Source of the DNA: Gammaproteobacteria bacterium
GTDB lineage: Bacteria; Pseudomonadota; Gammaproteobacteria; JAABTG01
NCBI GenBank assembly: GCA_034522055.1
Contig: JAXHLS010000006.1
Coordinates: forward strand, 1,212,790 to 1,276,789
Reading direction: 5' to 3'
Length of the DNA stretch: 64,000 nt
The notes below the pieces were generated by a model. The model was given only the letters and a program-made list of their open reading frames with translations. It searched no databases and was not told the origin of the DNA. This document shows positions 45,989-62,148 of the stretch, one piece after another. Every line of letters starts with the position of its first letter. The stretch's first letter is position 1. A program made the position numbers and the translations under genes.

Positions 45989-46051
45989 TCATCTCCTCCT
46001 TATGGTTATTGATTGCGTACAGCAGACACCCGCAACCCCTGGCCCATCTCT

Positions 46052-47533
46052 TCAGGGGGCCATCGCTGCCTGCGCTCCCGGCTCATCGGGCACCTCCATA
46101 CCGACGGGGATCCAGACCTGAAAGACGGTCTCTACCGGACCGCTCTCCACCTGGATGCGACCGTGGAGTCGGGTGACTATGCCGTGGGTAATCCACAGGC
46201 CGAGTCCGTTACCGTCCCATTGACTCTCCGTGAACGGCTCGAACAGGCGTTCGAGCCGATATTCCGGGATCGGCGGGCCCGTGTTGGCCACCTGCAGCCT
46301 CAGGCCATCCCCACTGCCGGTCACAGACACGCGCACGGCGCCGCCTGTCGGCGTCGCCTGGATGGCGTTGATGAGCAGATTCAACATCACCTGACGGATC
46401 GGTCCGCCGGGAACCGGCACCGTGGCACCGAGGGTATTTTCCCACGCCAGTTCCAGTTCCTTGTCCCGCGCCCGCGGGGCCACCAGATCGCGAACATCCT
46501 CCATGTCCCGGGGCGTGAGATGGCGGGTTTCGGAGCGCACCTCCACCAGTAATGCCGCCACGATATGGCGGATCTGCTCCAGACCGCGTTCCAGGAGATC
46601 CACGGTGCGACGCGCCACCGCGGGGTCATCGCCGTGGCGCTTGAGGGTGGCCAGGGCAGTTAACATGCCACCCAGTGGATTGTTGATCTCGTGGGCGACG
46701 CCGGCCGCCAGACGGCCAAGCGCGGCCTGGCGCTCGTTGCGGACCACCTGGCGTTCCAGGCTGCGCTTCTCTGCCAGGGCGATTGCCACCGACTCGATTC
46801 GGGCGCGCAGGCGTCCTATCTCACCGTCACCATGGCACCGCTCGACCGGGCAGGCCGGCGGGGTCTCGTCCGCGTCGCCGAGACGGGCCACGCAGTCCTC
46901 GAGCTCCCGCAGGGGACGGGCGATGCGCCACCCCAGCCACCACCCCAGGGGCACGATGAAGACGAGGCTCGCCACCGTAGCCACCAGCACCTGGAGGGAG
47001 GACTGATAGAAACGCGGCATCAGCCGGCCTTCGGAAGCCCCCAATACCAGGGTGCCCAGGCGCCGGTCACCGTCGAGGACCGGCACCAGCCGGTACCATT
47101 GTTCGCCGTCACGATGGGTGATGCCGCCCACGGGCAGGGTGGGCGCCAGGCGGCGCACGGTGGCCAGGGCGCCACCCAGGGACACCGCCGGGCGGGCAAG
47201 GGGAAAGCGTTGCGCATCCGATGCAATGAGCGTGGTGCCCGCGGCATCCACCACCACCGCAAAGGCGGGCATCAGCCAGCTTTCCCGATCCACCGCAAAG
47301 GCCGAGCGCAGGGTCCGGTAGGCCTGCCAGGTATCCTCCACGGCGAGTTCATGGGCCACCGCGCGAGCCAGCAGATGCCCCATCTGGGTCCCGGTGTGGG
47401 CGGCGTCGGCGCGCAGCACGCGGTAGTCGTGCCACATCACCGTGGCGGCGATGGCGACTCCCAGCCCCAGGGCGATGGCGGCCACCTGGATCGGGACCCG
47501 GTGGCTGAAACTGAGCCCATGCATCCCTTTCAT
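46052..47533 (-). CDS. Sensor histidine kinase
   Basis: The 493-residue protein has a first membrane segment (about 14-35), a periplasmic domain of about 140 residues, a second membrane segment (about 185-205), a HAMP-like stretch, the H-box LAAGVAHEINNPLGGML (phospho-His) and ATPase motifs (LINAIQATPTGG, then GNGLGLWITHGIV). It overlaps the PhnD-like gene by four bases. It probably reads the state of that periplasmic protein and phosphorylates the sigma-54 regulator. Confidence 0.93.
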   Translation of the reverse strand: MKGMHGLSFSHRVPIQVAAIALGLGVAIAATVMWHDYRVLRADAAHTGTQMGHLLARAVAHELAVEDTWQAYRTLRSAFAVDRESWLMPAFAVVVDAAGTTLIASDAQRFPLARPAVSLGGALATVRRLAPTLPVGGITHRDGEQWYRLVPVLDGDRRLGTLVLGASEGRLMPRFYQSSLQVLVATVASLVFIVPLGWWLGWRIARPLRELEDCVARLGDADETPPACPVERCHGDGEIGRLRARIESVAIALAEKRSLERQVVRNERQAALGRLAAGVAHEINNPLGGMLTALATLKRHGDDPAVARRTVDLLERGLEQIRHIVAALLVEVRSETRHLTPRDMEDVRDLVAPRARDKELELAWENTLGATVPVPGGPIRQVMLNLLINAIQATPTGGAVRVSVTGSGDGLRLQVANTGPPIPEYRLERLFEPFTESQWDGNGLGLWITHGIVTRLHGRIQVESGPVETVFQVWIPVGMEVPDEPGAQAAMAP

Positions 47534-48450
47534 TTGCTGATCTGGAGCACCCGTTCCATCATCGCCGGGATGTTGTCGTAGATATCCTCTCTTGGTTCGA
47601 CGAAGCGATCCAGATACAACACGTCCAGCAGGGCCTGGCCTGCCGGGTCCCGATGCATGTTCATGAGGATGGATCGCAGGTCCAGCATGACATCGTCATC
47701 CAGGAAAACCCCCGCCACCACGGGTGGAAACCCGAACTGTATCGACCGCTCCACCACGCGGGTGCGGGCCGTCAGTTGCGGATCGCGCCGCGCCATCACC
47801 TCCCAGATGTAACCATCCACCGCCCCGGCATCGGCGACGCCCTCCGCCACCGCCGTGACCACCTCCGGATGGGACCATGTGAAAAAGGTCTGGCGAAAGA
47901 ACTCCTGGGGCTCCCGTCCCAGACCCGTGATCACGAAGCGCGGATAGAGATAGCCGGTATTCGAGCGGGGCTCCACGTAGGCGAACACCGCCCCTTCGAG
48001 ATCCCCGTAGCCGCGGCTCGTCTGGTCGCGTGCCGGCACGATGAGATAGGAACGGTAATAGGGTTCACCCTGAAACTCGGGGATGGCCACCAGTCGCAGG
48101 CTGGCGCGGTTGAACACGTAGGGGAAGGTACACAGCCACGCCGCATCCAGCTGCCCTGACAGCAACATGTCGGAGATCTCGGCGTAACTCTTGCGCCGCA
48201 CGAAGCGCACGGGGCGGTCAAGGCGGGCGGACAGATACTCTTTCCAGCCTTCCAGGAAGGCCGCCTGATCCACCAGGAACACCGGCGTGATCCCGAAGTT
48301 GAACACCGCCGGATCGCCGCCGTCGTCCGCGGCCAGGGACAGGGGTGAGAACAGCATCAGGGCCAGCACCATCCACGCGGCCCACCGGACGACGATGGGT
48401 GAGCCACCGCCCTTCCCGTCTCGATCCCACGATCCCTGCATGCCAGCCAT
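47530..48450 (-). CDS. PhnD-like periplasmic solute-binding protein (sensor component)
   Basis: The protein of about 306 residues has a signal segment (AAWMVLALMLFSPLSLAADD) and a PhnD/TtrS-type binding fold: FNFGITPVFLVDQAAFLEGW, then YAEISDMLLSGQLDAAWLC and a VVTAVAEGVADAGAVDGYIW hinge. No transporter genes are adjacent, so it most likely feeds a signal to the histidine kinase. Separate binding protein, kinase and regulator genes divergent from a molybdoenzyme operon recall arxXSR beside arsenite oxidase arx genes, and TtrS fuses such a domain to a kinase. Starts at 48483, 48450 and 48441 are possible; none has a strong Shine-Dalgarno. Confidence 0.85.
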   Translation of the reverse strand: MAGMQGSWDRDGKGGGSPIVVRWAAWMVLALMLFSPLSLAADDGGDPAVFNFGITPVFLVDQAAFLEGWKEYLSARLDRPVRFVRRKSYAEISDMLLSGQLDAAWLCTFPYVFNRASLRLVAIPEFQGEPYYRSYLIVPARDQTSRGYGDLEGAVFAYVEPRSNTGYLYPRFVITGLGREPQEFFRQTFFTWSHPEVVTAVAEGVADAGAVDGYIWEVMARRDPQLTARTRVVERSIQFGFPPVVAGVFLDDDVMLDLRSILMNMHRDPAGQALLDVLYLDRFVEPREDIYDNIPAMMERVLQISK

Positions 48451-48451
48451 G

Positions 48452-48509
48452 GTTACCAATCGGTTACCTCCTGCCCGCCGCAATTCGCCGCCATATTACC
48501 CAACGGTAA
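48452..48509. promoter_or_regulatory. Candidate upstream activator sites for the sigma-54 regulator
   Basis: Two related palindromic sites stand 27 bases apart: GTTACCAATCGGTTACC (48452-48468) and TTACC-CAAC-GGTAA (48496-48509, perfect arms). They lie about 110-170 bases before the sigma-54-like promoter, the usual distance for NtrC-type enhancer sites. The same sites could control the divergent sensor operon. Confidence 0.6.
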
Positions 48510-48620
48510 CTCCTTCCTGACCTTGTGTTCGTGTCTGCATGTCCCGCGGGCGGGTCTGGAACCGTTCTCCGCCCACGCATCCGCTGCGTTGGGGCCCATC
48601 CCGGGCGCCCTTCGAGGCAT

Positions 48621-48637
48621 TAGGCACGATAGTTGTA
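48621..48637 (+). promoter_or_regulatory. Sigma-54-type promoter of the molybdoenzyme operon
   Basis: TAGGCACGATAGTTGTA matches the -24/-12 consensus TGGCACG-N4-TTGCA: GG and the -12 dinucleotide have the right ten-base gap, but the latter is GT where GC is usual. It lies about 125 bases before the ATG at 48760. The rest of the leader (48638-48759) has a good AAGGAGGAG Shine-Dalgarno and nothing else clear. Confidence 0.6.
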
Positions 48638-48759
48638 AGTGAATGGCCGAGCCCCGGAAACGACCCTTGTCTCGGCGTCTCCGAAGATGAAGTGATGTCG
48701 CTTTTACACACGTTAAATCGCGCCGTCCATTACTCAGATTAAGGAGGAGTGATCCCGCC

Positions 48760-51342
48760 ATGTATATATCCCGACGAAGCTTTCTGAAAGGCAGCGGTGC
48801 TTTGCTGGGTGTAGCCGGCGCCAGTGTGCAGCTTCCGGCCATCGCCAATGCCGCGGCCAAGGCGGCCTCGACCGGCGACGGCGCAGGCGGTATCAAGTAC
48901 GTCAACACCATCTGCGTGCATTGCGTTAACTTCTGCGGCCAGCGCATCAAGATGGAAGATGGCGTGATGCGGGTGGTCTATCCAAACCCCGACATCGCCG
49001 AATACTACAACAAGGGCATCTGCCCCAAGGGTGGCGCGGGCCCGTTCAACACCTATAACCCCTACCGCATCAAGGCCCCCCTCAAGCGCACCAATCCGAA
49101 GAAAGGCCCCCACGAGGACCCGGGCTGGGTGGAGATCTCCTGGCAGGAGGCACTGAATGAGATCGCCGGGCGTCTGGAAAAGATCAGGGCCGACGACCCG
49201 CGCAAACTCGTATGGCACCACGGCCACGGCAAGTATCTCATGCAGGACAAGTTTCCCAAGGCGTGGGCCAAGGCCTTCGGCACCCCGAACGTCGTGCATC
49301 GCACCACCACCTGTGAGGCCGCCCGCCACGTGGCCGACGAACTCACCTGGGGCTACCACAACTTCCTGCCGGACGTGGAACACACCAAGCTGCTGCTGAA
49401 CTTCGGTGCCAACTACTTCGAGGCCGAGCAGTGGGCCCGCTGGCTGGACCACGCGGTGACCGACGCCAAGGAACGGGGCCTCGAACTGGTCTCCATCGAG
49501 CCGCGGTTCTCCAACACCAGCGCCAAGGCGGACCGCTGGCTACCCATTCGCCCCGGTACCGACGTGGCGATGCTGCTCGCCATGGCCGGAGTACTCATCG
49601 ACAACGGCTACGTCGACGAGGAGTTCCTGGTCACCACCACCAACGCGCCCCAACTGGTGGGAGAGGATGGCCTCATCCTGCAGAGCGCCGAGGGTGAACC
49701 GCTGGTCTGGGACGAGGCCTCCGGCAGCGCCAGGCCCTACACCGAGGGTGTCAAACCCGCCCTCGCGGGCACCTACGAGGTCGCCGGCAAGCCGGCCCGC
49801 ACCGCCTTCCAGGTGCTGGCCGACAGCCTCAAGGAGGTCACTCCAGAGCACGCGGAGGCCATCACCGGCGTCCCCGCGGAGACCATCAGGGAACTCGCCC
49901 TGCACTTCGGCAAGACGGCCATGATCGGCGCCACCGTGCTGGTGGACGGCCACCGGGTGCGTTACCGGCCGGTGGCGGTGCACTCCTTCCGCGGCTTGGC
50001 CGCCAAGGAGTTCGGCACCCAGAACTGGCGCGCCGCCCAGATCGTGATGATGCTGGTGGGCGCCCAGGATGCGGTGGGTGGCCTGCATCTGCACGGGGTC
50101 TACAAGGAACCCAAGTACTTTGAGGCCTCCAAGTGCGAGTACCCGCCGACTCGGGTCGACCTCCAGGAGAGCGTCTACTTCCCCCACGCCACCCATAACG
50201 TGTGCCAGCAGGTGGCCCACACCCTTCTGGACCCCAAGGCCTACGGCCTGCCCTACGTGCCGGAGATGCAGATCTTCTATGCCACCAACCGGGTCATGTC
50301 CACCGCGGATGCCCTCAAGCAGTTCGAGGGTTATGCCAAGACCTGGAACGTGGTCATCGACCTGGTACTCACCGAGACCGCCAGCCTCGCGGACATCGTC
50401 CTGCCGGACCTGTCCTACCTGGAATCATGGCACTTCGCCCCCACCCGCTGGACCCCCGACAGCAAGCACACGGCCATTCGCCAGCCCCTGGTGAACGCCT
50501 ACAACATCCCGCTGGATACCTGGGGGATCATGTGGGAACTGGCCAAGCGCCTGAAATTCACCGATGCCTACGTAGAGAACATCAACGACAACTTCAAGCT
50601 CAAGAAGAACCCCATGCAGAAGGGACGCGACTATACCCCCAAGGAGGCGGTGGCCCTGTTGTGGAAGGAGGCCACGGGCAAGCCCTTCGACTATGCCATC
50701 GAGCATGGCTTCACGGGCAAGCACGTCGACGCCCGACATCGTTATCTGGACGGTGTCGAGAAACAGTTCAAGGGGCCGGGCAGACCCAAGATGAAGCTCT
50801 ATGCCGACCAACTGGTGAGCTCGTACGCCAAGGTCAAGGACACCGTCAATGACGAAAAGATCAAGAACCTCGACCTCGACAAGTACCGCATTGCCCTGTC
50901 TCCGATTCCCCTCAAGGCCCACGCCGCCCCCACGCCCCACCGGGAGGCGGACGACTATCCCATCTACCTCATGACCTTCAAGCGCATGTATCGCAACCAG
51001 ATGGGCAACACCGCCCTCAACCCCATCCTCAACGCCCTCGGGGATAGCGACGAGAACGCCATCCTCATGAACCCGGTGCTGGCGACGGAGCTGGGCCTGA
51101 TGGATGGCGAGCAGGCGCGCATCGAGACCCGGGTGGGCAGCGCCTCCGGCAAGGTACGGATCACCCAGGGTATCCGTCCCGATGTGGTGGGCGTGTCCTA
51201 CCACTATGGCCATATCAGCCCGAACTTCCCCGACCATGCCAAGAAGGGCACGTGGATCAACCAGGCCCTGGAACTCCACCCCGACGTGGTCAGCGGCATG
51301 AATTCCTTCAACGACACCAAGTGCAAGGTCGTCAAGGCCTGA
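48760..51342 (+). CDS. Tat-exported molybdopterin oxidoreductase (DMSO reductase family, Cys-ligand type)
   Basis: The 860-residue protein has a Tat signal (SRRSFLK), a [4Fe-4S] site Cys52-x2-Cys55-x3-Cys59-x28-Cys88, and TTTCEAARHVADEL with Cys185 as probable Mo ligand. It continues through the usual four-domain fold to a C-terminal molybdopterin-binding domain (about 720-855). LKRTNPKKG and a Cys ligand place it near thiosulfate/polysulfide reductases and arsenate/arsenite enzymes (PhsA, PsrA, ArrA, ArxA). No NrfD/PsrC-type membrane anchor follows; instead cytochromes and FccAB do. So a soluble periplasmic enzyme that delivers electrons to cytochrome c is likely. Substrate is unknown: sulfur compounds by context, arsenite by regulator layout. 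Confidence 0.85.
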   Translation: MYISRRSFLKGSGALLGVAGASVQLPAIANAAAKAASTGDGAGGIKYVNTICVHCVNFCGQRIKMEDGVMRVVYPNPDIAEYYNKGICPKGGAGPFNTYNPYRIKAPLKRTNPKKGPHEDPGWVEISWQEALNEIAGRLEKIRADDPRKLVWHHGHGKYLMQDKFPKAWAKAFGTPNVVHRTTTCEAARHVADELTWGYHNFLPDVEHTKLLLNFGANYFEAEQWARWLDHAVTDAKERGLELVSIEPRFSNTSAKADRWLPIRPGTDVAMLLAMAGVLIDNGYVDEEFLVTTTNAPQLVGEDGLILQSAEGEPLVWDEASGSARPYTEGVKPALAGTYEVAGKPARTAFQVLADSLKEVTPEHAEAITGVPAETIRELALHFGKTAMIGATVLVDGHRVRYRPVAVHSFRGLAAKEFGTQNWRAAQIVMMLVGAQDAVGGLHLHGVYKEPKYFEASKCEYPPTRVDLQESVYFPHATHNVCQQVAHTLLDPKAYGLPYVPEMQIFYATNRVMSTADALKQFEGYAKTWNVVIDLVLTETASLADIVLPDLSYLESWHFAPTRWTPDSKHTAIRQPLVNAYNIPLDTWGIMWELAKRLKFTDAYVENINDNFKLKKNPMQKGRDYTPKEAVALLWKEATGKPFDYAIEHGFTGKHVDARHRYLDGVEKQFKGPGRPKMKLYADQLVSSYAKVKDTVNDEKIKNLDLDKYRIALSPIPLKAHAAPTPHREADDYPIYLMTFKRMYRNQMGNTALNPILNALGDSDENAILMNPVLATELGLMDGEQARIETRVGSASGKVRITQGIRPDVVGVSYHYGHISPNFPDHAKKGTWINQALELHPDVVSGMNSFNDTKCKVVKA

Positions 51343-51360
51343 GGTTAGGAGAAAGACACC

Positions 51361-52050
51361 ATGGCGAAATTCGTAAGAGTCATCGATACCCAACGCTGCA
51401 TGGGCTGCCGTTCCTGCCTGGTGGCCTGTCATATGGAGAACTACCTTACGCCGGACTCCCCCTGGAACGTGATGATGGAATGGGAGACGGGAGCCTATCC
51501 CAACGTGGGACGCAGCTTCGTCACCATGAACTGCATGCACTGCGAAGACCCACCCTGTCAGGCCGCCTGCGACAGCGTGGGTGCCCGCGCCATCACCAAG
51601 AACGAGTACGGCGTCGTACTCATCGACTATGACCGCTGCATCGGCTGCCAGTACTGCAAGGTCGTCTGCCCCTACGGGGTGCCCCAGTTCAACGAGGAGG
51701 TGGCCACCCTCTACCCCGAAGGCGGCAAGACACCACCCGAGGCCCGCGCCGATGCCGACCGTCATCCATTGCATCGCAAGCAGGCAAACGTGATGGAGAA
51801 ATGCACCTTCTGCTGGCACAAGCTCGAGGAGGCCATCGCCAACGACGAGGCCCATCTCATCGGCAAACTGCCCCAATACACCCCGAGCTGCGATCTGGTG
51901 TGCCCGGTGGAGGCCAGGGTCTTCGGCGACATCGAGGACCCGACCAGCAAACCGGCCCAGTGGGTGGGCAGAAAAAAAGCGGCCCAGCTCAAGAAGGAGT
52001 TCGGGACCCGGCCGCAGGTCTATTACGTACTCGAAGGGGGAGACTACTGA
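51361..52050 (+). CDS. Four-cluster ferredoxin subunit (NrfC/PsrB-like)
   Basis: The 229-residue protein has cysteine groups for four [4Fe-4S] clusters: CMGCRSCLVAC, CMHCEDPPCQAAC, CIGCQYCKVVCPYG and CTFCW with CDLVCP. It is the electron-transfer partner of DMSO-reductase-type enzymes. It has no signal peptide and is probably carried out with the Tat-bearing catalytic subunit. It lies 18 bases after that gene and overlaps the following cytochrome gene by one base. Confidence 0.92.
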   Translation: MAKFVRVIDTQRCMGCRSCLVACHMENYLTPDSPWNVMMEWETGAYPNVGRSFVTMNCMHCEDPPCQAACDSVGARAITKNEYGVVLIDYDRCIGCQYCKVVCPYGVPQFNEEVATLYPEGGKTPPEARADADRHPLHRKQANVMEKCTFCWHKLEEAIANDEAHLIGKLPQYTPSCDLVCPVEARVFGDIEDPTSKPAQWVGRKKAAQLKKEFGTRPQVYYVLEGGDY

Positions 52051-52466
52051 TGCGCCGTATAGCAACGACTATGACAGGGGTGATGGTCCTGGGGCTGCTC
52101 ACGGCAACCGCCATGGCCGCAGACTCGCGCCAGGCCGCCATCGACGCCTACCCGGGCCTGACCGAACACGCCAAGATGATTCGCCGCGGCAAGCTCGAAA
52201 CCGGCAAGCGCTATTCCATGCACGATGAAGAGGGCCGCTTCCACGTCATTCACGTGGACGAGATCGACATGGAGTGTTCGAGTTGTCACGTGGGCGCCCG
52301 CTATGCCAAGGACTACCTGCTACTCGGCAGGGACCAGGCCGAGCGCAAGGCCGCCGGCACAGGAAAGGGCGAAACCGCCGAGGTAACCGACCGGGCGGTG
52401 TGCCTGGGCTGTCACAAGCAGGGCGGCATCGCCCAGCCCTGGTACCGCACGGCCAGCGAGCGATGA
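52050..52466 (+). CDS. Small diheme cytochrome c
   Basis: The 138-residue protein has a signal peptide (about 1-24) and two heme sites, CSSCH (about residue 75) and CLGCH (about 117). It starts in a TGATG overlap with the ferredoxin and ends in an ATGA overlap with torD, so it is a tightly coupled part of the complex. It takes the place usually held by a membrane quinone-interacting subunit, and is probably the electron exit from the ferredoxin to soluble cytochromes. I do not recognise a named family. Confidence 0.85.
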   Translation: MRRIATTMTGVMVLGLLTATAMAADSRQAAIDAYPGLTEHAKMIRRGKLETGKRYSMHDEEGRFHVIHVDEIDMECSSCHVGARYAKDYLLLGRDQAERKAAGTGKGETAEVTDRAVCLGCHKQGGIAQPWYRTASER

Positions 52467-53122
52467 GCACGGTATCCCGACATAACCCGGACGCCGCCGA
52501 GCGGGCCAAGGGGTGGTGGTTTCTGGCCCGCTTCTACGACACCCGGCCGGACAATGCCTTTATCGCGGAGCTGCGCTCCGCCTTCGTGGGCGCCGGCGAG
52601 GCGCTAGGTGCGGACGAACTCGCGTTGTGGCGCTGCATCGACGCCGGTAACCCGGCGCCCGAGGACGACCTGCTGCCGGAATACACGCGGCTGTTCCGCG
52701 GCATCGCCGAACACTACGGCCCCCCGCCGCCCTACGAGTCCCTCTACCGGGGCGCCACCGCCATGGGCGATGTGGCCATGGCGGTGGCCAAGTCCTACGC
52801 CGCATCGGGTCTCGACGGCCTCGCCGGCGACAACGGGCCGCCCGACCACCTGGCCACGGAATTGCGTTTTCTGTCCCTGCTGAGCCATCGCGAAATGGCG
52901 GCCTGGGATGCCGGCGATGACGATGGCGCACGGCAGGCGCTGCGGCAACAGCGGGCATTCCTCGACCATCACCTCCTCACCTGGCTGCCCGACTATGCAG
53001 ACACCATCGCCGGTGCCGCCCGCAGCCCGTTCTACCCGGCCGTCGTGCGTCTCACCGCAGGCTTGGCCACGGACATGCGCGAGACCATGAACACTGGTGC
53101 CGCGCCCATGGAGGCAACCTGA
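52463..53122 (+). CDS. TorD/DmsD-family molybdoenzyme chaperone
   Basis: The 219-residue, all-helical protein has the family's ELRSAF start region and the conserved EYTRLFRGIAEHYGPPPPYE segment, near the E-YxxLF-GP...P..S pattern of TorD/DmsD proteins. It should bind the Tat signal of the molybdoenzyme until the cofactor is inserted. It stays in the cytoplasm and overlaps the cytochrome gene by four bases. Confidence 0.88.
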   Translation: MSTVSRHNPDAAERAKGWWFLARFYDTRPDNAFIAELRSAFVGAGEALGADELALWRCIDAGNPAPEDDLLPEYTRLFRGIAEHYGPPPPYESLYRGATAMGDVAMAVAKSYAASGLDGLAGDNGPPDHLATELRFLSLLSHREMAAWDAGDDDGARQALRQQRAFLDHHLLTWLPDYADTIAGAARSPFYPAVVRLTAGLATDMRETMNTGAAPMEAT

Positions 53123-53123
53123 C

Positions 53124-54698
53124 ATGCACGCGGTGGCTCATGCCGAGGATTGGACGGATGAGGGCGACGGGGCGACGGTGGAATACCGGTGCCGGGGCAG
53201 CCTGCTGCTGTGCGGCCCCCCCGAGGCGGTCAGGCCGCTGCTGTCACGGCTGCCGGCGGGGCTGCGCACGGTGGCCGTGGCACCGGGGTTGGGTGGCCTC
53301 GGCAGGCCGCCCGCTCTCAAGACCCTCGGGGCGCGGGTGAGCCGCATCGAAGGGCATCTGGGGCGGTTTCGTGCCTATGGGCAGGGCTCCGACGGCGAAC
53401 TCGACCTGGGTCCCTTGAGCACCAACAGGGACGGTCTGTTCGATCTGGTGATGGATCTCGGCGACCCACCCCTGGATCCTCGCGAGGTGCCCCCCCTGGG
53501 CTATGTCCGATCCGCGGGCTCGCTGGCCGAGGCGGTAGAACGACTGGAGCAGCTGGCCCGCCTCGAGGGCACGGTGCACAAGCCACGCTATTTCGATTTC
53601 GACGCCGGGCTGTGTGCCCACACCCGCCAGGGCCGCACGGGCTGCCGGCGCTGTCTCGATGCCTGTGCCGCCGGCGCCATTGACTCTCCTGGGGGACGAA
53701 TCACCATCGACCCCTACCTGTGCCAGGGCTGCGGCGGCTGTGCCCTGGTGTGTCCCACCGGCGCCGTCAGCCACCGGCGTAGCGCCGCCGCCCCCACCCT
53801 GGCGGCCATCGCGCGGGCCCTCGACACGGCCCCGGTTCATCCCACCCTGGTGATCCATGCCGACGCTCACCCGCCTACCGCGGCCGCGGGCGACATGGTC
53901 TCCCTGCCCACCGCCGCCGTCGCGGCTATCGGCGCCGACACGTGGCTGGGTAGTCTCGCCCTCGGTGCCGCCCGCGTGGTGGTGATGACACCGGCCGATC
54001 TGCCCCTGTCCAGCCGCCAGGCCCTCGCCACCGAAGTGGCAGCGGCACGCTGCCTGCTGGAGGGCATCGGCTGCGACCCGAACACTATTCATCTCCAGAA
54101 TAAAGATGACGACACCCCGCCGGTGAGCGCGGGTGCAACCGTGACGCCGCGGCCGTCCCTGGATGTGAGCACCCTGAGCTCGGCCGGCGGCAAACGTGAC
54201 CGCCTGCTGGTCGCCCTCGGTCATCTCGCCCACCATGCCCCAACACCCGCCCGCAGCGTCGGGCTGCCGGCTGGCGCGCCCTACGGCCGCCTGGGGATGG
54301 CGGTGGAGCGCTGCACCCTGTGCCTTGCCTGTACGGTCCTCTGCCCCACCCGCGCCCTCGGCGCCGAGCAGGGCGCGCTGGTTCTGGACGATGGCGCCTG
54401 TATCCAGTGCGGCCTGTGTAGCGATGCATGTCCGGAGCAGGCCTTGTCCCTGCTGGCCGATTTCGACGGTCGCTGCCTGGCGAGCGGTGCGGCGGGCCGC
54501 CGCACCCTTAAGGCGGCCTCCGAGCCCTATCCCTGTGCCGCGTGCGGGCGGCCGTTCGCCTCCCGGGCCCTGGTCATGCGCGGCATGGAGCACGTCCGGG
54601 ACCACCCCATGTTCCAGGGCAAAGGACGACAGCTGCTGGAGATGTGCCCGGAATGCCGCCAGGCGGCGGCCACCGGCCTCGCCGGCAGTCCCAGATGA
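53124..54698 (+). CDS. Polyferredoxin-type 4Fe-4S protein
   Basis: The 524-residue protein has two cluster pairs: CRRCLDACAAGAI with CQGCGGCALVCPTGAV (about 178-220), and CTLCLACTVLCPTRAL with CIQCGLCSDACPEQAL (about 393-445). A C-terminal CAACGRPF...CPEC zinc-type site follows. Related proteins stand next to TorD genes in formate dehydrogenase and DMSO reductase-family clusters, with unproven roles in maturation or electron supply. No signal peptide. I chose ATG 53124, two bases after torD. Confidence 0.8.
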   Translation: MHAVAHAEDWTDEGDGATVEYRCRGSLLLCGPPEAVRPLLSRLPAGLRTVAVAPGLGGLGRPPALKTLGARVSRIEGHLGRFRAYGQGSDGELDLGPLSTNRDGLFDLVMDLGDPPLDPREVPPLGYVRSAGSLAEAVERLEQLARLEGTVHKPRYFDFDAGLCAHTRQGRTGCRRCLDACAAGAIDSPGGRITIDPYLCQGCGGCALVCPTGAVSHRRSAAAPTLAAIARALDTAPVHPTLVIHADAHPPTAAAGDMVSLPTAAVAAIGADTWLGSLALGAARVVVMTPADLPLSSRQALATEVAAARCLLEGIGCDPNTIHLQNKDDDTPPVSAGATVTPRPSLDVSTLSSAGGKRDRLLVALGHLAHHAPTPARSVGLPAGAPYGRLGMAVERCTLCLACTVLCPTRALGAEQGALVLDDGACIQCGLCSDACPEQALSLLADFDGRCLASGAAGRRTLKAASEPYPCAACGRPFASRALVMRGMEHVRDHPMFQGKGRQLLEMCPECRQAAATGLAGSPR

Positions 54699-54803
54699 AC
54701 GGGCTCGACCCGCTCCGGAATTGAAGTGAAATCCAAAGGATGACCCATGAACGACTGCACCACATGGGCTAAACCACCAGCGAAAGACAGGAGGGTATCC
54801 GTC

Positions 54804-55406
54804 ATGAGAAACACCACCCTATGGGCGGCGGCGATGCTGCTGGCGACCACGTCTCTGCCGGCCGGCGCGGCCGACGCAACCAAGCCTGACATCAGCAGAG
54901 CCAGCATGACCGCCCATAGCTGCGCCGGTTGTCATGGCGTCGACGGCTCCAGCGTGGGGCCCTCCATCCCGAGCATCGCGGCGATGGAGGAGGACCGGTT
55001 CATCGATGCTATGCTCGACTATCGCAGGGGAATACGCCATTCCACCATCATGACCCGCATCGCCAAGGGCTACAGCGATGCCGAGATCCGGGGCATGGCC
55101 CGCTTTTTCGCCGACCAGGAACTGGTCCGCCGGTCCCAGAAACACGATCCCATCGAGGCCAAGCTCGGCGCCCGCATCCACATGGAAAGCTGCAATCAGT
55201 GCCATCAGCGGGGCGGACAATCACCGGGACGGGGCGGCTACCTCGCCGGACAGTGGATGCCCTATCTCGCCTTCACCCTCGAGGATTACCTGTCAGGCCA
55301 ACGGCCGGTGCGCAAGAAGATGATGCGCAAGCTGCATTCCGTGATCGCCGAGTATGGCGAGGACGGCGTCGAGGCCCTGATTCACTTCTATGGCAGCCAG
55401 AACTGA
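54804..55406 (+). CDS. fccA: Diheme cytochrome c, probable FccA-type subunit
   Basis: The 200-residue protein has a signal peptide (TTLWAAAMLLATTSLPAGA), and two c4-like halves with CAGCH (about residue 37) and CNQCH (about 132). It lies 17 bases before the flavoprotein gene, the usual fccAB order. It should accept electrons from the FAD subunit. The ATG at 54804 follows GGAGGG. The 105-base gap after the polyferredoxin shows no clear terminator, so it may share the same transcript. Confidence 0.88.
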   Translation: MRNTTLWAAAMLLATTSLPAGAADATKPDISRASMTAHSCAGCHGVDGSSVGPSIPSIAAMEEDRFIDAMLDYRRGIRHSTIMTRIAKGYSDAEIRGMARFFADQELVRRSQKHDPIEAKLGARIHMESCNQCHQRGGQSPGRGGYLAGQWMPYLAFTLEDYLSGQRPVRKKMMRKLHSVIAEYGEDGVEALIHFYGSQN

Positions 55407-55423
55407 AGGAAAAGGAGCAACCC

Positions 55424-56722
55424 ATGAGCAACATCAAGCGCCGAGATTTCATTCGCATCACCGGTACGGCGGCCCTCGCGGGCGTCGCGGCGGGTTTTCC
55501 CTCCCTGGTGCTGGGGGCCGGTCGTCAGGTCGTCGTGGTGGGCGGCGGCGTGGGTGGCTGTACCGCAGCCAAATACCTGCGCAAGCTGGACCCGAGCATC
55601 AAGGTCATCCTGGTGGAGGCCGAGCCCAAATACCACTCCTGTTTCCTCAGCAACGAGTATGTCAGCGGTGAGCGCACCATGGAGTCCCTCACCTTCGGTT
55701 ACGACGGCCTGGCGAAACACGGGGTGACCGTGGTGAATGACCGGGTGACCGCCATCGAGCCGGACAAAAAACAGGTGCGCACGGCAGGAGGGCACCGTTT
55801 CTCCTACGATGCCTGCATCGTCTCCCCCGGGGTGGACTTCAAGTGGGAGGCCATCGACGGCTATTCCGAGAAGGTGGCCGACACCATTCCCCACGCCTGG
55901 TACGGCGGCCCCCAGACTGAGATCCTGCGCAGGCAGGTACGCGCCATGCCCGATGGCGGCGTGGTCGCCATCGTGGCCCCACCCAACCCCTTCAAGTGCC
56001 CTCCCGGCCCCTACGAGCGGGCATCCCAGATCGCCATGTACTGCAAGCGCGAGAAGCCGCGCTCCAAGATCATGATCCTCGACTACAAGGATGCCTTCAC
56101 CAAGCAGGACCTGTTCATCCAGGGCTGGAGCCGCCTCTATGGCTACGGCACCAACTACAGCATGATCGAGTGGGTATCCGCCGCCGCCGGCGGCAAGGTC
56201 GAAGCCGTAGACCCCAAGGCCGGCACCCTCATAGGGCTGGTGGATGAATTCAAGGCCGACGTCATCAACATCATCCCGCCCCAGAAGGCGGGCCAGATCG
56301 CCTTCCAGGCCGATCTCGTCGACGGCGACTGGTGCCCGGTGGACAAGAAGACCTTCGAGTCCACGCGCCATGCAGACATCTACGTGCTCGGTGATGCCAG
56401 CGATGCCGCCCACATGCCCAAGTCGGCCTATGCCGCCAATTCCCAGGCCAAGGTCTGCATCGCGGCCATCATCGCCAGGCTCAACGGCATGACCATCCCT
56501 GCCGACCCGTCCTACGTCAACACCTGCTACAGCATTCTAGGCGAGGATTACGGCATCTCCGTGGCCGGCGTCTACCGTCTCGACGAGGAACGCAACATGA
56601 TCGTGGGGATCGAGGGCGCGGGCGGCCTCACGCCCATGGACACCGCGCCCCAGTTCCTGGCCCGGGAGGTCACCTACGCCCACAGCTGGTTCGAGAATCT
56701 CATCCACGACATGATGGGCTAA
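55424..56722 (+). CDS. fccB: Flavocytochrome c sulfide dehydrogenase flavoprotein subunit (FccB/SoxF type)
   Basis: The 432-residue protein has a Tat signal (RRDFIR), a Rossmann start VVVVGGGVGGCTAAKYL and three cysteines in fitting places: Cys73 in YHSCFLSNEY (covalent FAD), Cys192 in FKCPPGP and Cys368 in NTCYS (active-site disulfide). Each is 31 residues above the Allochromatium mature numbers 42, 161 and 337, which fits a roughly 31-residue signal. It oxidises sulfide to sulfur or polysulfide in the periplasm and passes electrons to FccA. Last gene of the run. Confidence 0.94.
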   Translation: MSNIKRRDFIRITGTAALAGVAAGFPSLVLGAGRQVVVVGGGVGGCTAAKYLRKLDPSIKVILVEAEPKYHSCFLSNEYVSGERTMESLTFGYDGLAKHGVTVVNDRVTAIEPDKKQVRTAGGHRFSYDACIVSPGVDFKWEAIDGYSEKVADTIPHAWYGGPQTEILRRQVRAMPDGGVVAIVAPPNPFKCPPGPYERASQIAMYCKREKPRSKIMILDYKDAFTKQDLFIQGWSRLYGYGTNYSMIEWVSAAAGGKVEAVDPKAGTLIGLVDEFKADVINIIPPQKAGQIAFQADLVDGDWCPVDKKTFESTRHADIYVLGDASDAAHMPKSAYAANSQAKVCIAAIIARLNGMTIPADPSYVNTCYSILGEDYGISVAGVYRLDEERNMIVGIEGAGGLTPMDTAPQFLAREVTYAHSWFENLIHDMMG

Positions 56723-56735
56723 CGGGCCGCCAGCG

Positions 56736-56772
56736 CCCGGGGGAAGGGCCGATGCATCAGTGCTTCCCCGGG
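56736..56772 (+). terminator. Hairpin after fccB
   Basis: CCCGGGGGAAG and CTTCCCCGGG form a strong stem-loop 14 bases after the fccB stop. It is also the first part of the segment duplicated at 61783, so it may belong to the higA module and not to the operon. Confidence 0.55.
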
Positions 56773-57102
56773 CACCGGCGGCGCTGTTTGCACGCACTTG
56801 ATCACGACTTGAAGCTACGCCGCCGCATCTCGCTGCCGCGCCTGCCACAGGTCGTATTTCATCTGCTGGCCGAGCCACACCTCGGCGCGCCCGCCGTGCT
56901 CAGGTCCCAACCATTTTTCCAGCCGCAATGCCATCTCCGGGGAGACCGCGGCTCGGCCATTCAATACCCGCGACAAGGTCACCCGGCTGACCCCAAGCAG
57001 CTCGGCGGCCTCCTTCACGGTCAGGCCGAATGCCGGCAGAACATCCTCGCGCAGCGTCTCGCCGGGATGTGGTGGGCTGAACATACGCATCATCTTATCC
57101 TC
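56737..57102. repeat. 366-bp duplicated segment, copy 1 (carries higA)
   Basis: This segment recurs at 61783-62148 in the same orientation and at equal length, with few substitutions outside the hairpin loop. It contains a hairpin, about 40 bases of spacer and the whole higA-like gene with its start. Confidence 0.92.
56815..57090 (-). CDS. HigA-type antitoxin, orphan copy 1
   Basis: The 91-residue protein starts MRMFSPPHPGETLREDVLPA with a helix-turn-helix VKEAAELLGVSRVTLSRVLN, the HigA/VapI antitoxin pattern. HigB toxin genes normally stand just upstream; none is seen in 57091-57260. It ends RQRDAAA, longer than copy 2. An ATG one codon upstream (57093) is also possible. Confidence 0.87.
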   Translation of the reverse strand: MRMFSPPHPGETLREDVLPAFGLTVKEAAELLGVSRVTLSRVLNGRAAVSPEMALRLEKWLGPEHGGRAEVWLGQQMKYDLWQARQRDAAA

Positions 57103-57606: not shown

Positions 57607-58020
57607 TCACGCGCGCCCCCCTGCGCGGCGCAGTGTGCCGCTGAGTTCCGTGCCCGGCGCCACCGTGTTATAGACCGTTCCGTATTTGCGGATGTTCTCG
57701 TGCATCAGCTCCAGCCTGCGGTCATTCTCGTCGGTGTCGATTTCGATTATATAGTCGATGTGGCTCATCTTCGGCGGCGTGTCCTGGCGCACGCCATGTA
57801 TCCTGACACTAACGCCACGGTAATCGAAATGAATCATGGGTGCGATGCGCTCCATGTTTTTCAAAATGCAGGCGGCGACGGCCGCCAGCAGCAATTCGGC
57901 GGGGTTCAAGGCATCCGCCCTGCCCTTCAGATCGGTATCGATGACCAGCTCTGCGTCCTTACAGTGCACCATGCTGCCGTGGGCATCGGTACGTGTGGCG
58001 GTGATTTCGTATTCCAGCAT
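57607..58020 (-). CDS. OsmC-family protein
   Basis: The 137-residue protein has the OsmC/Ohr fold pattern: ALNPAELLLAAVAACILKNM in the middle, holding the usual active-site Cys, and IDYIIEIDTDEND after it. The second peroxidase Cys is not obvious at its usual place, so peroxide reduction is uncertain. It lies alone on the minus strand. The following gap 58021-58201 has no feature I can name. Confidence 0.85.
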   Translation of the reverse strand: MLEYEITATRTDAHGSMVHCKDAELVIDTDLKGRADALNPAELLLAAVAACILKNMERIAPMIHFDYRGVSVRIHGVRQDTPPKMSHIDYIIEIDTDENDRRLELMHENIRKYGTVYNTVAPGTELSGTLRRAGGRA

Positions 58021-58201: not shown

Positions 58202-58384
58202 TCATCCCGTCGCCCCGAACAGCAGCCCCACCCCGGCCGTGATCGCCATCGCCAGTACGCCCCAGAACGTCACGCGCCAAATACCTTTGAGCACGTCGGC
58301 ACCACCGGTATAGGCGGCCAGACCGCCAAGCAGCATCAGAAACAGCAGCGATGTGGCGCCGACCACCAGCGCCACACGAGTCAT
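58202..58384 (-). CDS. Short membrane protein, probable VIT1/CCC1-type C-terminal fragment
   Basis: The 60-residue frame (ATG 58384) encodes two hydrophobic helices, VALVVGATSLLFLMLLGGLA and WGVLAMAITAGVGLLFG, joined by a segment like the last loop of VIT1/CCC1-type iron/manganese transporters. Such transporters have about 230 residues, so this is a tail only. AGGGAG stands just upstream, so translation is possible. It follows the SOR-like gene by 82 bases. Confidence 0.5.
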   Translation of the reverse strand: MTRVALVVGATSLLFLMLLGGLAAYTGGADVLKGIWRVTFWGVLAMAITAGVGLLFGATG

Positions 58385-58466: not shown

Positions 58467-59441
58467 TCAAGCCTGCTTGACCAGCCGGCGCGTGATATAG
58501 AACGGCTCGACCGGGCCAACCACCACGGCCGCTCCGACCGGCGCGGCAGCCGCCTTGAAGCGCGGGTCGAGATGGGAATTCTCATGATCCCACACCGATT
58601 CCCACACGCCATGCATGAGATAGGCACGCAGGTCGCCGTCGGCGTGTACATTGCGCAGTATCTCGGTGCTCAAGGCCTTGCGATAATGCCGGTTGTCACG
58701 GGCACCGGGCCGGCCGTTGCCATCGACCGCGTCGGCCGGCTGATAGGTCTCCTGCGCCACCTTGAGCAACGCCATGACCTGGGACTCGAGGGTCAGATGG
58801 CCGGCGTCTGCGACCATGACGTGATTCTCGACGGACACCGTCTCGCGCTCAGGGGCATCCACCGGACGGCGCAGAAAGGTGCGGATCGCCTCCGGAGTCG
58901 TGTAAACCCCTTGGCGGTCACCGGCAGCGACCGTGGTGAACAAGCCGCGATAGATCGCCATCGGCCGGGTCGCCGAAGACGCGCCCTGCATGGTCAGGTG
59001 CGGCAGCACCCGGGCGTCGAAGGCCTGCGCCGTCCCGGAAGCCTGCAGCGTAGCGGCGTCGTTGAAGCGGATGAACAGAGCATAGAAATACGGCTGGGTG
59101 TGGGCTTGCACGCCGTCCAGATACGCCGTCGCCAGGACACCCTTGTAGCGCTCGGGATAATTCTTGACCATCGTCGAGTCACCGCTCATCTGCTTGAGCG
59201 CCAGGCCGAGAAAACCCGGCCTGGCACGCAGCTCGTCGGCCAGCGCATCGATCGCGGACAGCGCCTGTGCATTCTGCGGCGGCATCACGCGGAATTCGGT
59301 ATACAACGTCAATGCGCCCTCGACCGCGACAGGTTCGCGCAGTCCCTGGGCGGAAAAGGCACCGGGGGCAAAGCCGCTGGCCGCCAGCGCACCGCTCGTG
59401 GCCAAGCTGGATTGCAGAAACGCGCGACGGTTCATGTTCAT
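58467..59441 (-). CDS. Tat-exported protein with tandem ABM/SOR-like domains
   Basis: The 324-residue protein has a Tat-like signal ([20 protein letters not shown]) and two alpha-beta (dimeric barrel) halves: [10 protein letters not shown] with [14 protein letters not shown] (about 40-160), and [13 protein letters not shown] to the end. Near the C-terminus DHENSH (His286, His290) and GPVEPFY (Glu312) resemble the iron site of sulfur oxygenase reductase (His86-x3-His90, Glu114 in GPWEP), although in SOR this lies in the first half. AGGAGG precedes the start. It lies in an operon with a TauE/SafE exporter. A sulfur-metabolic iron enzyme is an inference; a heme- or metal-free ABM protein is the alternative. 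Confidence 0.6.
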
Positions 59442-59598: not shown

Positions 59599-60363
59599 TC
59601 AGCGCAGCAGGTCGAAACCCAGCTTCACGGCAACCCCAAGCAGCACGACACCGTAGGCTGCGCGCACCCATTGGGGTTTGCTGCGGCACGCCATGTACCA
59701 GGCACCCAGTTGGGAGCCCGCCACCACGGCCAGCACGACCAGCAGCAGCAGTTGTCCGCCCGGCAGACCGACGAAGGCGTGGCCCAGAAAACCGGAGAAG
59801 GAGGAGAAGGTCACCACGTAGGCCGTGGTGGCCGCCGCCGCCTTCGGCTCATAGCCCAGTTCCATCATGACCGGCGCGATAATGAAACCGCCCCCGAGTC
59901 CCAGCATGCCGCCGACAAATCCGGCGAGGCCGCCGCTCGCCAGACCGACCAGCATTCGGCTGCGGGCTGACAAATTGCGCCGGGGGCCGGCAGCGGGACC
60001 GGTGAGGCTGCGCAGCGCCGCCACCAGGACACCAACGGCGAACAAACCTAGCAGCACGCGAGTCGGCAGCAGATGGGCGCTCCAGGCCCCCAGCGGCGCT
60101 AGCACCAGCGCGGCGGCCGCGGCGGGCGTGCCGCCGCGGAAATCCACCAGCCCCTCCCGCCAGTAGCGCAGAAAAGCCAGCAGGGTATTGAGTCCGTTCA
60201 GCAACAGGCCCAGCGGGATGGCGGCGGTCTTCAACGGCAGGCCCAGCCAGGTGAGGACCGGAACGTAGAGCATGCCGCCGCCGAGGCCGAGCGCGGCAAA
60301 GACGGCCGAAATACCGAAGATCAGCAGCGCCGCTGCCAACGCCAGCGTCAGTGTGGGTTCCAT
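59599..60363 (-). CDS. TauE/SafE (TSUP) family anion exporter
   Basis: The 254-residue membrane protein has about eight hydrophobic segments in two related halves, each with the TSUP glycine pattern (LGLGGGMLYVPVLTWLGLPL and GLGGGFIIAPVMMELG). Family members export sulfite, sulfoacetate or similar. It stands between FmdE (12 bases upstream) and the SOR-like gene (157 bases downstream). Removing sulfite made by sulfur oxidation is a reasonable inference. Confidence 0.9.
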   Translation of the reverse strand: MEPTLTLALAAALLIFGISAVFAALGLGGGMLYVPVLTWLGLPLKTAAIPLGLLLNGLNTLLAFLRYWREGLVDFRGGTPAAAAALVLAPLGAWSAHLLPTRVLLGLFAVGVLVAALRSLTGPAAGPRRNLSARSRMLVGLASGGLAGFVGGMLGLGGGFIIAPVMMELGYEPKAAAATTAYVVTFSSFSGFLGHAFVGLPGGQLLLLVVLAVVAGSQLGAWYMACRSKPQWVRAAYGVVLLGVAVKLGFDLLR

Positions 60364-60375
60364 GCGGGATGCGGC

Positions 60376-61017
60376 TCAGGCCTGCCGCCCCAGCGCCTTC
60401 TGCTGACAGGGGATGCAGACCTTCTCGTTGCCCAGGATGCGGCCGTAGGACTGCACCGTCATCTCACCGCAGTGGTCACAGACGAAGGAGTCGAAGTCGT
60501 GCGGATGGTCCTGCCAGATCTGGTCGCGGGGGCCTTCGATCTGGAACAGTTGCTCCGTCGGCGTCTCGAGCACCCGGGCCATCAGCGGCTCCACCACCTC
60601 GGCCGGAACCGCCGAGGCCGGGACGCCTTGCATGCGGTATTCGGTAAAAAAAGCGGTCTGCTTATTGGCCGCCATGACCTCGGCACGGGGCGTGACCCGC
60701 ACCGCACGGGCGTTCTTCTTGTCGATGAGCGTAAGTCCGAACTTACCATAGCCGAGCTTGCGGATGTTGCCCTTGCCGAAGGTGCAGCCGGTGGCCATCT
60801 GCACCCCGTCGGCGAAACAGGTGGCGCAGTGCTCGTCGCCGAGGTCCACCAGGGCCATGAGCTGGCCATCATGGGCCCGTTCGGCGCCCAGCGCCTCCAG
60901 CGCCGCGAGCCCGGCGCGCAATCCCATGGGCATGGCGGGGCATTTGTGGCCATGCAGCATGAGCCCGGCATCGAGCAGGTCGGCGGGAACGGGGGAGTTG
61001 GCGGTCAGATCATTCAT
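60376..61017 (-). CDS. FmdE-family protein with C-terminal zinc finger
   Basis: The 213-residue protein has the FmdE N-terminal motif LHGHKCPAMPMGLRAG with further Cys in DEHCATCFADG and ATGCTFGKGNI (about 30-130), and a C-terminal FVCDHCGEMTV...CIPCQQKA zinc ribbon. FmdE proteins lie near molybdenum enzymes in many genomes, but their role is unsettled. The ATG at 61017 follows AAGGAGAACC. Second gene of the ECF operon. Confidence 0.85.
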   Translation of the reverse strand: MNDLTANSPVPADLLDAGLMLHGHKCPAMPMGLRAGLAALEALGAERAHDGQLMALVDLGDEHCATCFADGVQMATGCTFGKGNIRKLGYGKFGLTLIDKKNARAVRVTPRAEVMAANKQTAFFTEYRMQGVPASAVPAEVVEPLMARVLETPTEQLFQIEGPRDQIWQDHPHDFDSFVCDHCGEMTVQSYGRILGNEKVCIPCQQKALGRQA

Positions 61018-61127
61018 CAGGGTTCTCCTTACGAGTGTGGGATCGCCGTTGCGCAGGCGCGACTCGGCGATCCATGGATTTCTAGTAGGGAGACGAACAT
61101 CCCTGCAAAAGGATGCAACCAAACCAA

Positions 61128-61718
61128 CTATAGGGCAGAGCCCGTCGGTTTGCGCGGCACATAGCAACACACCTTGCCGGTCTCGTCGAGGCGCACTTGG
61201 CAGGCCTCAGTGAGGTGCGCGCGCAGGCGCTTACGCGCCCGCTGCACGCGGGACTTGGCGCCGGGCAGGCTGAGCCCCTTGCGCCGGGCATAGGCTTCCT
61301 GAGTCAATCCCTCCAAGTCACATAGGGTGAGCGTCTCGCGATCCTCCGCGGAGAGTTCCGCCATTACCCGCGGCAGGCATGCGGCGAGGGTCTCCACCGG
61401 CTCTGGTCTGTTACTGTCGGCGACCAGGTTAGCAGGCAGTTCCACCTGTGTTTTCTTCAGACGCAGGCGATCGGCCAGGGCGTTGCGTGCCACCTGGAAC
61501 AGCCAGGCGCGGGCATTGTCGATGGCGCAGAAGCGCCGATTCTGGCGCATGGCCTTGAGGAACAGCTCCTGCAACAGGTCATCCGCGTCGTGGGGGTCGG
61601 CCAACCGCCCGCGCAACCAGGCGCGCAGCTCGCGCTCGTGTTGCTGCCAGGCCCTCATGAGACAGCTTACCGCCGCGCCATCCCTTGGGCCTTCCCGGTT
61701 ATTAGAAATGTCAACCAT
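61128..61718 (-). CDS. ECF-type RNA polymerase sigma factor
   Basis: The 196-residue protein has sigma region 2 (ADPHDADDLLQELFLKAM, then DNARAWLFQVARNALADRLR) and region 4 (LSAEDRETLTLCDLEGLTQE, then YARRKGLSLPGAKSRVQRAR). The C-terminal CQVRLDETGKVCCYVPRK tail resembles SigZ-like factors and carries Cys residues that could bind metal or respond to redox. No anti-sigma gene is next to it. It leads FmdE, TauE/SafE and SOR-like genes on the same strand. ATG 61718 (GTGGAG upstream) or 61658. Confidence 0.88.
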   Translation of the reverse strand: MVDISNNREGPRDGAAVSCLMRAWQQHERELRAWLRGRLADPHDADDLLQELFLKAMRQNRRFCAIDNARAWLFQVARNALADRLRLKKTQVELPANLVADSNRPEPVETLAACLPRVMAELSAEDRETLTLCDLEGLTQEAYARRKGLSLPGAKSRVQRARKRLRAHLTEACQVRLDETGKVCCYVPRKPTGSAL

Positions 61719-61782: not shown

Positions 61783-62148
61783 CCGGGGGAAGGGCCAACC
61801 GCCTCGCGCTTCCCCGGGCACCGGCGGTGCTGTTTGCACGCACTTGATCACGACATGAACCTACGCCGCCGCATCTCACTGCCGCGCCTGCCACAGGTCG
61901 TATTTCATCTGCTGGCCGAGCCACACCTCGGCGCGCCCACCGTGCTCAGGTCCCAACCATTTTTCCAGCCGTAATGCCATCTCCGGGGAGACCGCGGCAC
62001 GGCCATTCAATACCCGCGACAAGGTCACCCGGCTGACCCCAAGCAGCTCGGCGGCCTCCTTCACGGTCAGGCCGAATGCCGGCAGAACATCCTCGCGCAG
62101 CGTCTCGCCGGGATGTGGTGGGCTGAACATACGCATTATCTTATCCTC
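61783..62148. repeat. 366-bp duplicated segment, copy 2 (carries higA)
   Basis: Second copy of 56737-57102, same orientation, 5,046 bp away. A short GAAATGGGGTCA(A/G)ACACGA motif lies upstream of higA in copy 1 (about 57110) and downstream of it in copy 2 (about 61729), so the outer boundaries differ. Confidence 0.92.
61876..62136 (-). CDS. HigA-type antitoxin, orphan copy 2
   Basis: The 86-residue protein is identical in sequence to copy 1 through WQARQ. One base change then makes a stop in place of Arg and removes five residues. It starts MRMFSPPHPGETL and has no toxin gene upstream: the sigma-54 regulator ends 27 bases away at 62164. Confidence 0.87.
   Translation of the reverse strand: MRMFSPPHPGETLREDVLPAFGLTVKEAAELLGVSRVTLSRVLNGRAAVSPEMALRLEKWLGPEHGGRAEVWLGQQMKYDLWQARQ

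Follow-up and report, generated by a model that had tools for sequence, protein, structure and literature searches.

A CT0912-family protein with a twin-arginine leader and a candidate iron site resembling that of sulfur oxygenase reductase, encoded in a SigZ-linked gene block

The gene block and its CT0912-family member

The window, i.e. the whole stretch of 64,000 nucleotides that was analysed, contains a block of same-strand genes in which a SigZ-type ECF sigma factor is followed by an FmdE-like protein, a TauE/SafE-family permease, a 324-aa protein of the CT0912 family, a 60-aa VIT1-like protein and an OsmC-like protein (Table 1). The block is flanked by 300-nt direct repeats which are 98% identical, suggesting an acquired or duplicated cassette. 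A genome of the same genus has neither CT0912 nor a close SigZ (best other matches about 30% identity), and the SigZ-FmdE-TauE-CT0912-OsmC block was probably gained as one piece. The literature searched contained nothing on SigZ together with FmdE.

Table 1. Features of the gene block and of its CT0912-family protein (window coordinates)
Feature	Position	Strand	Basis
CT0912-family gene, 324 aa	58467..59441	-	ORF check, Pfam, PDB sequence match
Twin-arginine leader, residues 1-31, RRAFL ... AFSA	59349..59441	-	Sequence; sub-threshold TAT profile; twin Arg in most homologues
N-terminal ABM-like domain PF21931, residues 43-129	59055..59315	-	Pfam
C-terminal CT0912-like domain PF22087, residues 171-318	58488..58931	-	Pfam
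HENSH ... GPVEP segment, H286/E287/H290/E312, candidate iron site	58503..58586	-	Homologue invariance; match to SOR His86/His90/Glu114 segment
SigZ-type ECF sigma factor, first gene of block	61128..61718	-	TIGR02959, 178.7 bits, above cut-off
FmdE-like protein, zinc-ribbon-like end, start may be internal	60376..61170	-	PF02663
TauE/SafE-family permease	59599..60363	-	PF01925
60-aa membrane protein resembling end of VIT1	58202..58384	-	PF01988, 28.1 bits, at cut-off
OsmC-like protein, last gene of block	57607..58020	-	PF02566
Direct repeat copy 1, with HTH_3 ORF	56762..57061	.	98% identical to copy 2
Direct repeat copy 2, with HTH_3-type ORF	61808..62107	.	Repeat comparison

Adjoining the block, at 44627-56722, lie a two-component system with a PhnD-like binding protein, a Tat-exported Phs/Ttr-like molybdopterin enzyme with its FeS subunit, a cytochrome c and flavocytochrome c sulfide dehydrogenase (FCSD), a cluster likely to serve respiration of sulfur compounds. 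The FCSD and molybdoenzyme genes (44-57 kb) were considered as partners of the CT0912 protein and rejected, since they lie on the opposite strand and FCSD is conserved at no other locus.

The open reading frame, strand and residue numbers given for the 324-aa protein in the initial annotation were re-derived from the sequence and are correct (minus-strand codons: H286, 58584-58586; H290, 58572-58574; E312, 58506-58508). What that annotation overlooked is that the protein belongs to an already known family with a solved structure. PF22087 and PF21931 match it at 211.2 and 129.9 bits respectively, compared to a curated cut-off of 27, which places it in the CT0912 family. A sequence search of the PDB returned a sole match, 3GN6 of Chlorobium/Chlorobaculum tepidum (E 4.8e-115, residues 40-321, 63% identity), and Foldseek matched the predicted model to the same entry (E 1.5e-40). 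This entry is a full-length homologue with the same two-domain fold and the same HENSH...GPVEP residues, displaying no essential difference from our protein; the 2009 deposition classes it as an ORFan having a repeated ferredoxin-like domain, and its title gives no metal. The two dimeric-alpha/beta halves recognised previously correspond to the two ABM-like Pfam domains, and the same fold is seen in 3GN6 and in the model. Neither CT0912 nor 3GN6 was mentioned in the literature searched.

The Tat signal proposed earlier is also borne out at the sequence level, the leader being of the RRxFL twin-arginine type. The Pfam TAT profile scores 13.8 bits on this protein, below its cut-off, and matches nine of 35 homologues (best E 1.5e-4), while an RR pair occurs within the first 30 residues of 24 of the 35 homologue gene models and in three more after extension of a trimmed start. 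Four mycobacterial members and about four others have no leader, and a periplasmic location is therefore not universal in the family. In three loci from Campylobacterales and Thiotrichales (L031, L028, L030) the twin-arginine leader is combined with a lipobox-like one (LSAC/LSSC), which suggests that these versions may be lipid-anchored.

We searched genome contigs for the family and collected 40 loci, from hosts that include Acidithiobacillus, Thiomonas, Halothiobacillus, Thiocapsa, Thiotrichales, Campylobacterales, Leptolyngbya, Acidocella, Methylocella and Mycobacterium; the 35 homologues that were aligned are 41-64% identical to the query. The family is rare: in the phylum sample of 398 genomes the source genome was the sole positive, as it was among 56 relatives, one of the same genus included. 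No homologue was found in the viral contigs and plasmids searched. One genome that already holds a CT0912 protein (L036) encodes a second (L048, 1498-2517, minus strand), with a lipobox-like leader.

The HENSH...GPVEP segment and its relation to sulfur oxygenase reductase

The initial annotation had likened His286-x3-His290 and Glu312 in GPVEP to the iron site of sulfur oxygenase reductase (SOR), and made its claim depend on their conservation. All three are invariant in the 35 aligned homologues, as are E287, N288, S289, P310 and P313, together with the basic residues R51, K83, K93, K100, R125, R176 and R294, which are invariant in the family. The motif is also beyond a chance match. When the window and every locus retrieved were translated from stop to stop, 5,856 ORFs resulted. 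HExxH-x(17-24)-GPxEP occurs in 38, every one from a CT0912 locus; 37 of these also have Trp six residues ahead of the first His, and the full pattern, W-x5-HExxH-x(17-24)-GPxEP, is present in seven of seven SORs tested. In the predicted model (pLDDT 83.6, pTM 0.85) the two histidines sit where the helix following strand 3 begins, with E312 placed on strand 4, an arrangement that we take to be the SOR layout. On sequence grounds, the candidate site formed by these residues is likely to bind a metal. The HExxH motif with a downstream Glu is also what a gluzincin-like zinc metallopeptidase would display, but the fold is dimeric alpha/beta, of the ABM/SOR type, both in 3GN6 and in the model, and no credible peptidase family match was found (a single homologue matched Peptidase_C2, at E 0.094). 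A zincin protease was ruled out on fold, and we regard this explanation as hardly credible.

Profile comparisons point to a remote relationship with SOR. When a SOR HMM was run against the 5,856 ORFs, CT0912 members ranked top, always at model positions of about 77-121, the best being the L048 protein (E 0.0011). The Pfam SOR model likewise gave its best match in the family to this protein (residues 293-333, E 0.0056, 16 bits), which reads GPWEP, exactly the SOR form, and looks from its sequence like an intermediate toward SOR. In the reverse direction, a CT0912 profile searched against the PDB had SOR 6QPA as its second match (E 1.4, same motif segment), and the one other Pfam match of the source genome's own SOR is CT0912-like_C, again over this segment and sub-threshold (11.9 bits, E 0.19). 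Alignment of the CT0912 C-half with the SOR N-half by hhalign scored 35.5, compared to 10.9 for a reversed-profile control and a mean of 13.4 for shuffles (sd 2.9, maximum 25.0), none of 150 being as good. Taken one by one the HMM scores are weak; they become convincing only through the reciprocity and through the shuffle test, which is the firm result. A shared origin of the candidate site and the SOR iron site is likely.

SOR (PF07682; 2CB2, 6M35, 6QPA) has two dimeric-alpha/beta halves and the same Trp-containing iron segment, but carries it in the N-terminal half, whereas in CT0912 it lies in the other half (residues 286-313 of 324); sequence similarity is confined to about 43 residues. 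The domain order had been described as swapped. The part of this claim that stands is the placing of the site in the opposite half; the complementary pairing, CT0912 N-half with SOR C-half, was matched by 31 of 150 shuffles, and the N-N (8/150) and C-C (12/150) pairings were not significant either. As the N-half has no above-shuffle match to the SOR C-half, reciprocal loss after duplication, starting from an ancestor in which each half had a site, is as possible as a domain swap, and the same outcome would be expected from both.

Structural comparison is less specific. In the Foldseek search the model did match SORs (E 4e-9, TM 0.56, rmsd about 8 A), after 3GN6 and double-ABM monooxygenases. 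The overall fold is shared with two-domain ABM monooxygenases (5F9P, 3MCS, PenE 9KDP) at E 1e-8 to 1e-10, and we know of no two-domain fused ABM monooxygenase that has the HExxH...GPxEP segment. The C-half folded alone resembles ABM proteins and SOR about equally and does not discriminate between them. The likeness of this modelled half to many cofactor-free ABM proteins counts against reading it as a SOR-like iron enzyme. The protein could instead be of the ABM type and either cofactor-free or structural, its motif serving to stabilise the fold or to bind zinc rather than as an O2-activating iron site, which would agree with its fold and with the deposited title of 3GN6, which names no metal. 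We consider this improbable, as the residues matching all three SOR iron ligands, along with the Glu beside them, are invariant and we know of no reason for this other than a metal site.

The source genome also encodes a 149-aa single-domain protein (L043, G000:C6:71935-72150) with an HExxH motif (FEDHEASHR) and no GPxEP. Its best Pfam match is SOR (17 bits, E 0.0028, SOR positions 4-104), and it is possibly a half-SOR-like protein.

SOR forms a 24-subunit hollow sphere with S0 oxygenase and reductase activity, and is cytoplasmic, whereas the CT0912 protein carries a predicted twin-arginine leader. In addition to His86, His90 and Glu114, SOR requires Cys31, the C31A variant being inactive (PMC7398979). 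The 324-aa protein contains no cysteine at all, none is conserved across the 35 homologues (leaderless mycobacterial members included), and equivalents of SOR Cys31/101/104 are thus missing. PF07682 (cut-off 25 bits) does not match the protein, while a bona fide SOR is encoded elsewhere in the source genome (470 bits); only three of the 40 CT0912 host genomes have a SOR. By these sequence features the CT0912 protein is not a SOR.

Neighbours of CT0912 genes at other loci

Neighbours were mapped by tblastn in the 38 other non-redundant CT0912 loci, with 17 stretches (196 kb) of host genomes as controls. An ArsP_1 permease is present in 16 loci and Trx_3 in the same 16, while SigZ is found in 11 as well as in the window. 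Other neighbours are an ArsI-like VOC protein (10 loci), OsmC (nine), a carboxymuconolactone-decarboxylase-like protein (nine), CDF (eight), ACR3 (four) and ArsH (three). None of the mapped neighbour genes occurs in the control stretches, giving Fisher p values of 0.001 for ArsP and 0.012 for SigZ when loci are treated as independent, though related species are not. CT0912 genes thus usually lie among stress, efflux and arsenic-resistance genes, and the context differs between lineages.

These neighbours raise the possibility that CT0912 is an iron protein belonging to ars-type operons, with methylated or thiolated arsenicals as substrates and a function parallel to that of ArsI or ArsH. The clearest case is Mycobacterium europaeum (L007, 1046-8487), where a leaderless CT0912 gene lies inside a run of ACR3, ArsC, an ArsC-ArsD fusion, ArsA, [CT0912], VOC and ArsR; in two further loci (L013, L016) an aquaporin gene is immediately downstream, and the ACR3, ArsH and ArsP_1 counts favour the same role. 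However, canonical ars genes (ACR3 or ArsH) occur in just six of the 38 loci, and acid-mine organisms are ars-rich anyway. The permease tested scored 132 compared to a SaoE cut-off of 325, with no ArsP-specific NCBIfam match, and the VOC protein tested scored 52.8 compared to an ArsI/CadI cut-off of 116. We judge this explanation unlikely. Literature on DUF318, ArsP/Thiomonas and Thioalkalivibrio arsenite had no bearing on the family.

Oxidation, perhaps disproportionation, of elemental or sulfane sulfur by a periplasmic oxygenase acting like SOR without its cysteine would account for the SOR-type motif, for the sulfur genes, FCSD among them, that adjoin the block in the window, and for the many hosts that are sulfur oxidisers. 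CT0912 host genomes carry SoxY in 25 of 40 cases, compared to 79 of 200 genomes of the window's phylum, a modest excess that is confounded by phylogeny. A periplasmic sulfur dioxygenase has moreover been postulated for Acidithiobacillus, in which a triple sor-sdo1-sdo2 mutant led to the inference of undetermined S0-oxidising enzymes (PMC6335251). Against this, the cysteine that SOR needs is missing, FCSD adjoins CT0912 in the window alone among the loci mapped, mycobacteria, cyanobacteria and methanotroph-type bacteria are among the hosts, SoxY being absent from 15 of the 40, and the true SOR of the source genome is located elsewhere. We judge this explanation quite unlikely. The view that the protein is a periplasmic SOR is not supported: besides the cysteine, its conserved neighbours differ from those of SOR, being SigZ, ArsP/TauE permeases, Trx_3, OsmC and ars genes rather than sulfur-oxidation genes.

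A possible role for exported CT0912 proteins

Together, the motif in the opposite half, the missing cysteine and the stress, efflux and arsenic context make it probable that CT0912 is an iron enzyme still to be characterised and not a periplasmic SOR. We propose that a single non-heme iron would be held by His286, His290 and Glu312 in the C-terminal dimeric-alpha/beta domain, with Glu287 as the putative counterpart of SOR Glu87 and a local scaffold like that of the SOR N-half site. The iron would activate O2 with the substrate bound directly to the metal, which is most likely since there is no cysteine to hold a sulfur chain. Persulfide dioxygenases of the ETHE1 type may offer a parallel, as they too have mononuclear iron held by two His and one carboxylate, and cysteines that are not generally conserved (PMC6060420); their metallo-beta-lactamase fold is unrelated to CT0912, and the analogy is of chemistry only. 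Any sulfur chemistry of CT0912 would, by this analogy, need its substrate to be taken at the metal.

The substrate is probably a small soft anion, which the invariant R51, K83, K93, K100, R125 and R176 would grip. It may be an inorganic sulfur or arsenic-sulfur species, although we place a sulfur or arsenic substrate somewhat below an even chance. Located in the envelope, the enzyme would carry out one step of a detoxification pathway linked to SigZ, regulation by SigZ being suggested by gene linkage. Its product or partner would be moved by TauE here and by an ArsP-type permease elsewhere, in a direction that we infer, and would be kept reduced by the thioredoxin-like and OsmC proteins. We regard this reading as a whole, a Tat-exported 2-His-1-Glu iron enzyme with a soft-anion substrate in a SigZ-linked detoxification cassette, as evenly balanced between right and wrong. 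The more far-reaching version, in which CT0912 proteins are exported mononuclear iron oxygenases of a new, cysteine-free class, remotely related to SOR with the site in the opposite half, and oxidise periplasmic sulfur or thio-arsenic species under SigZ, is rather doubtful.

The CT0912 family and its structure are already known. The literature searched gave no description of a connection with the SOR iron site, of the missing cysteine or of the SigZ/ArsP context. If the proposal is true, a family known structurally since 2009 yet lacking a function would gain a testable active site and a testable context, and the SOR iron scaffold would exist outside SOR, without cysteine chemistry and outside the cell. 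To our knowledge, the enzymes that act on thioarsenicals are largely unknown. On the more far-reaching version, the family would be a candidate for the periplasmic sulfur dioxygenase that has long been postulated, or for an unknown enzyme of thioarsenic detoxification.
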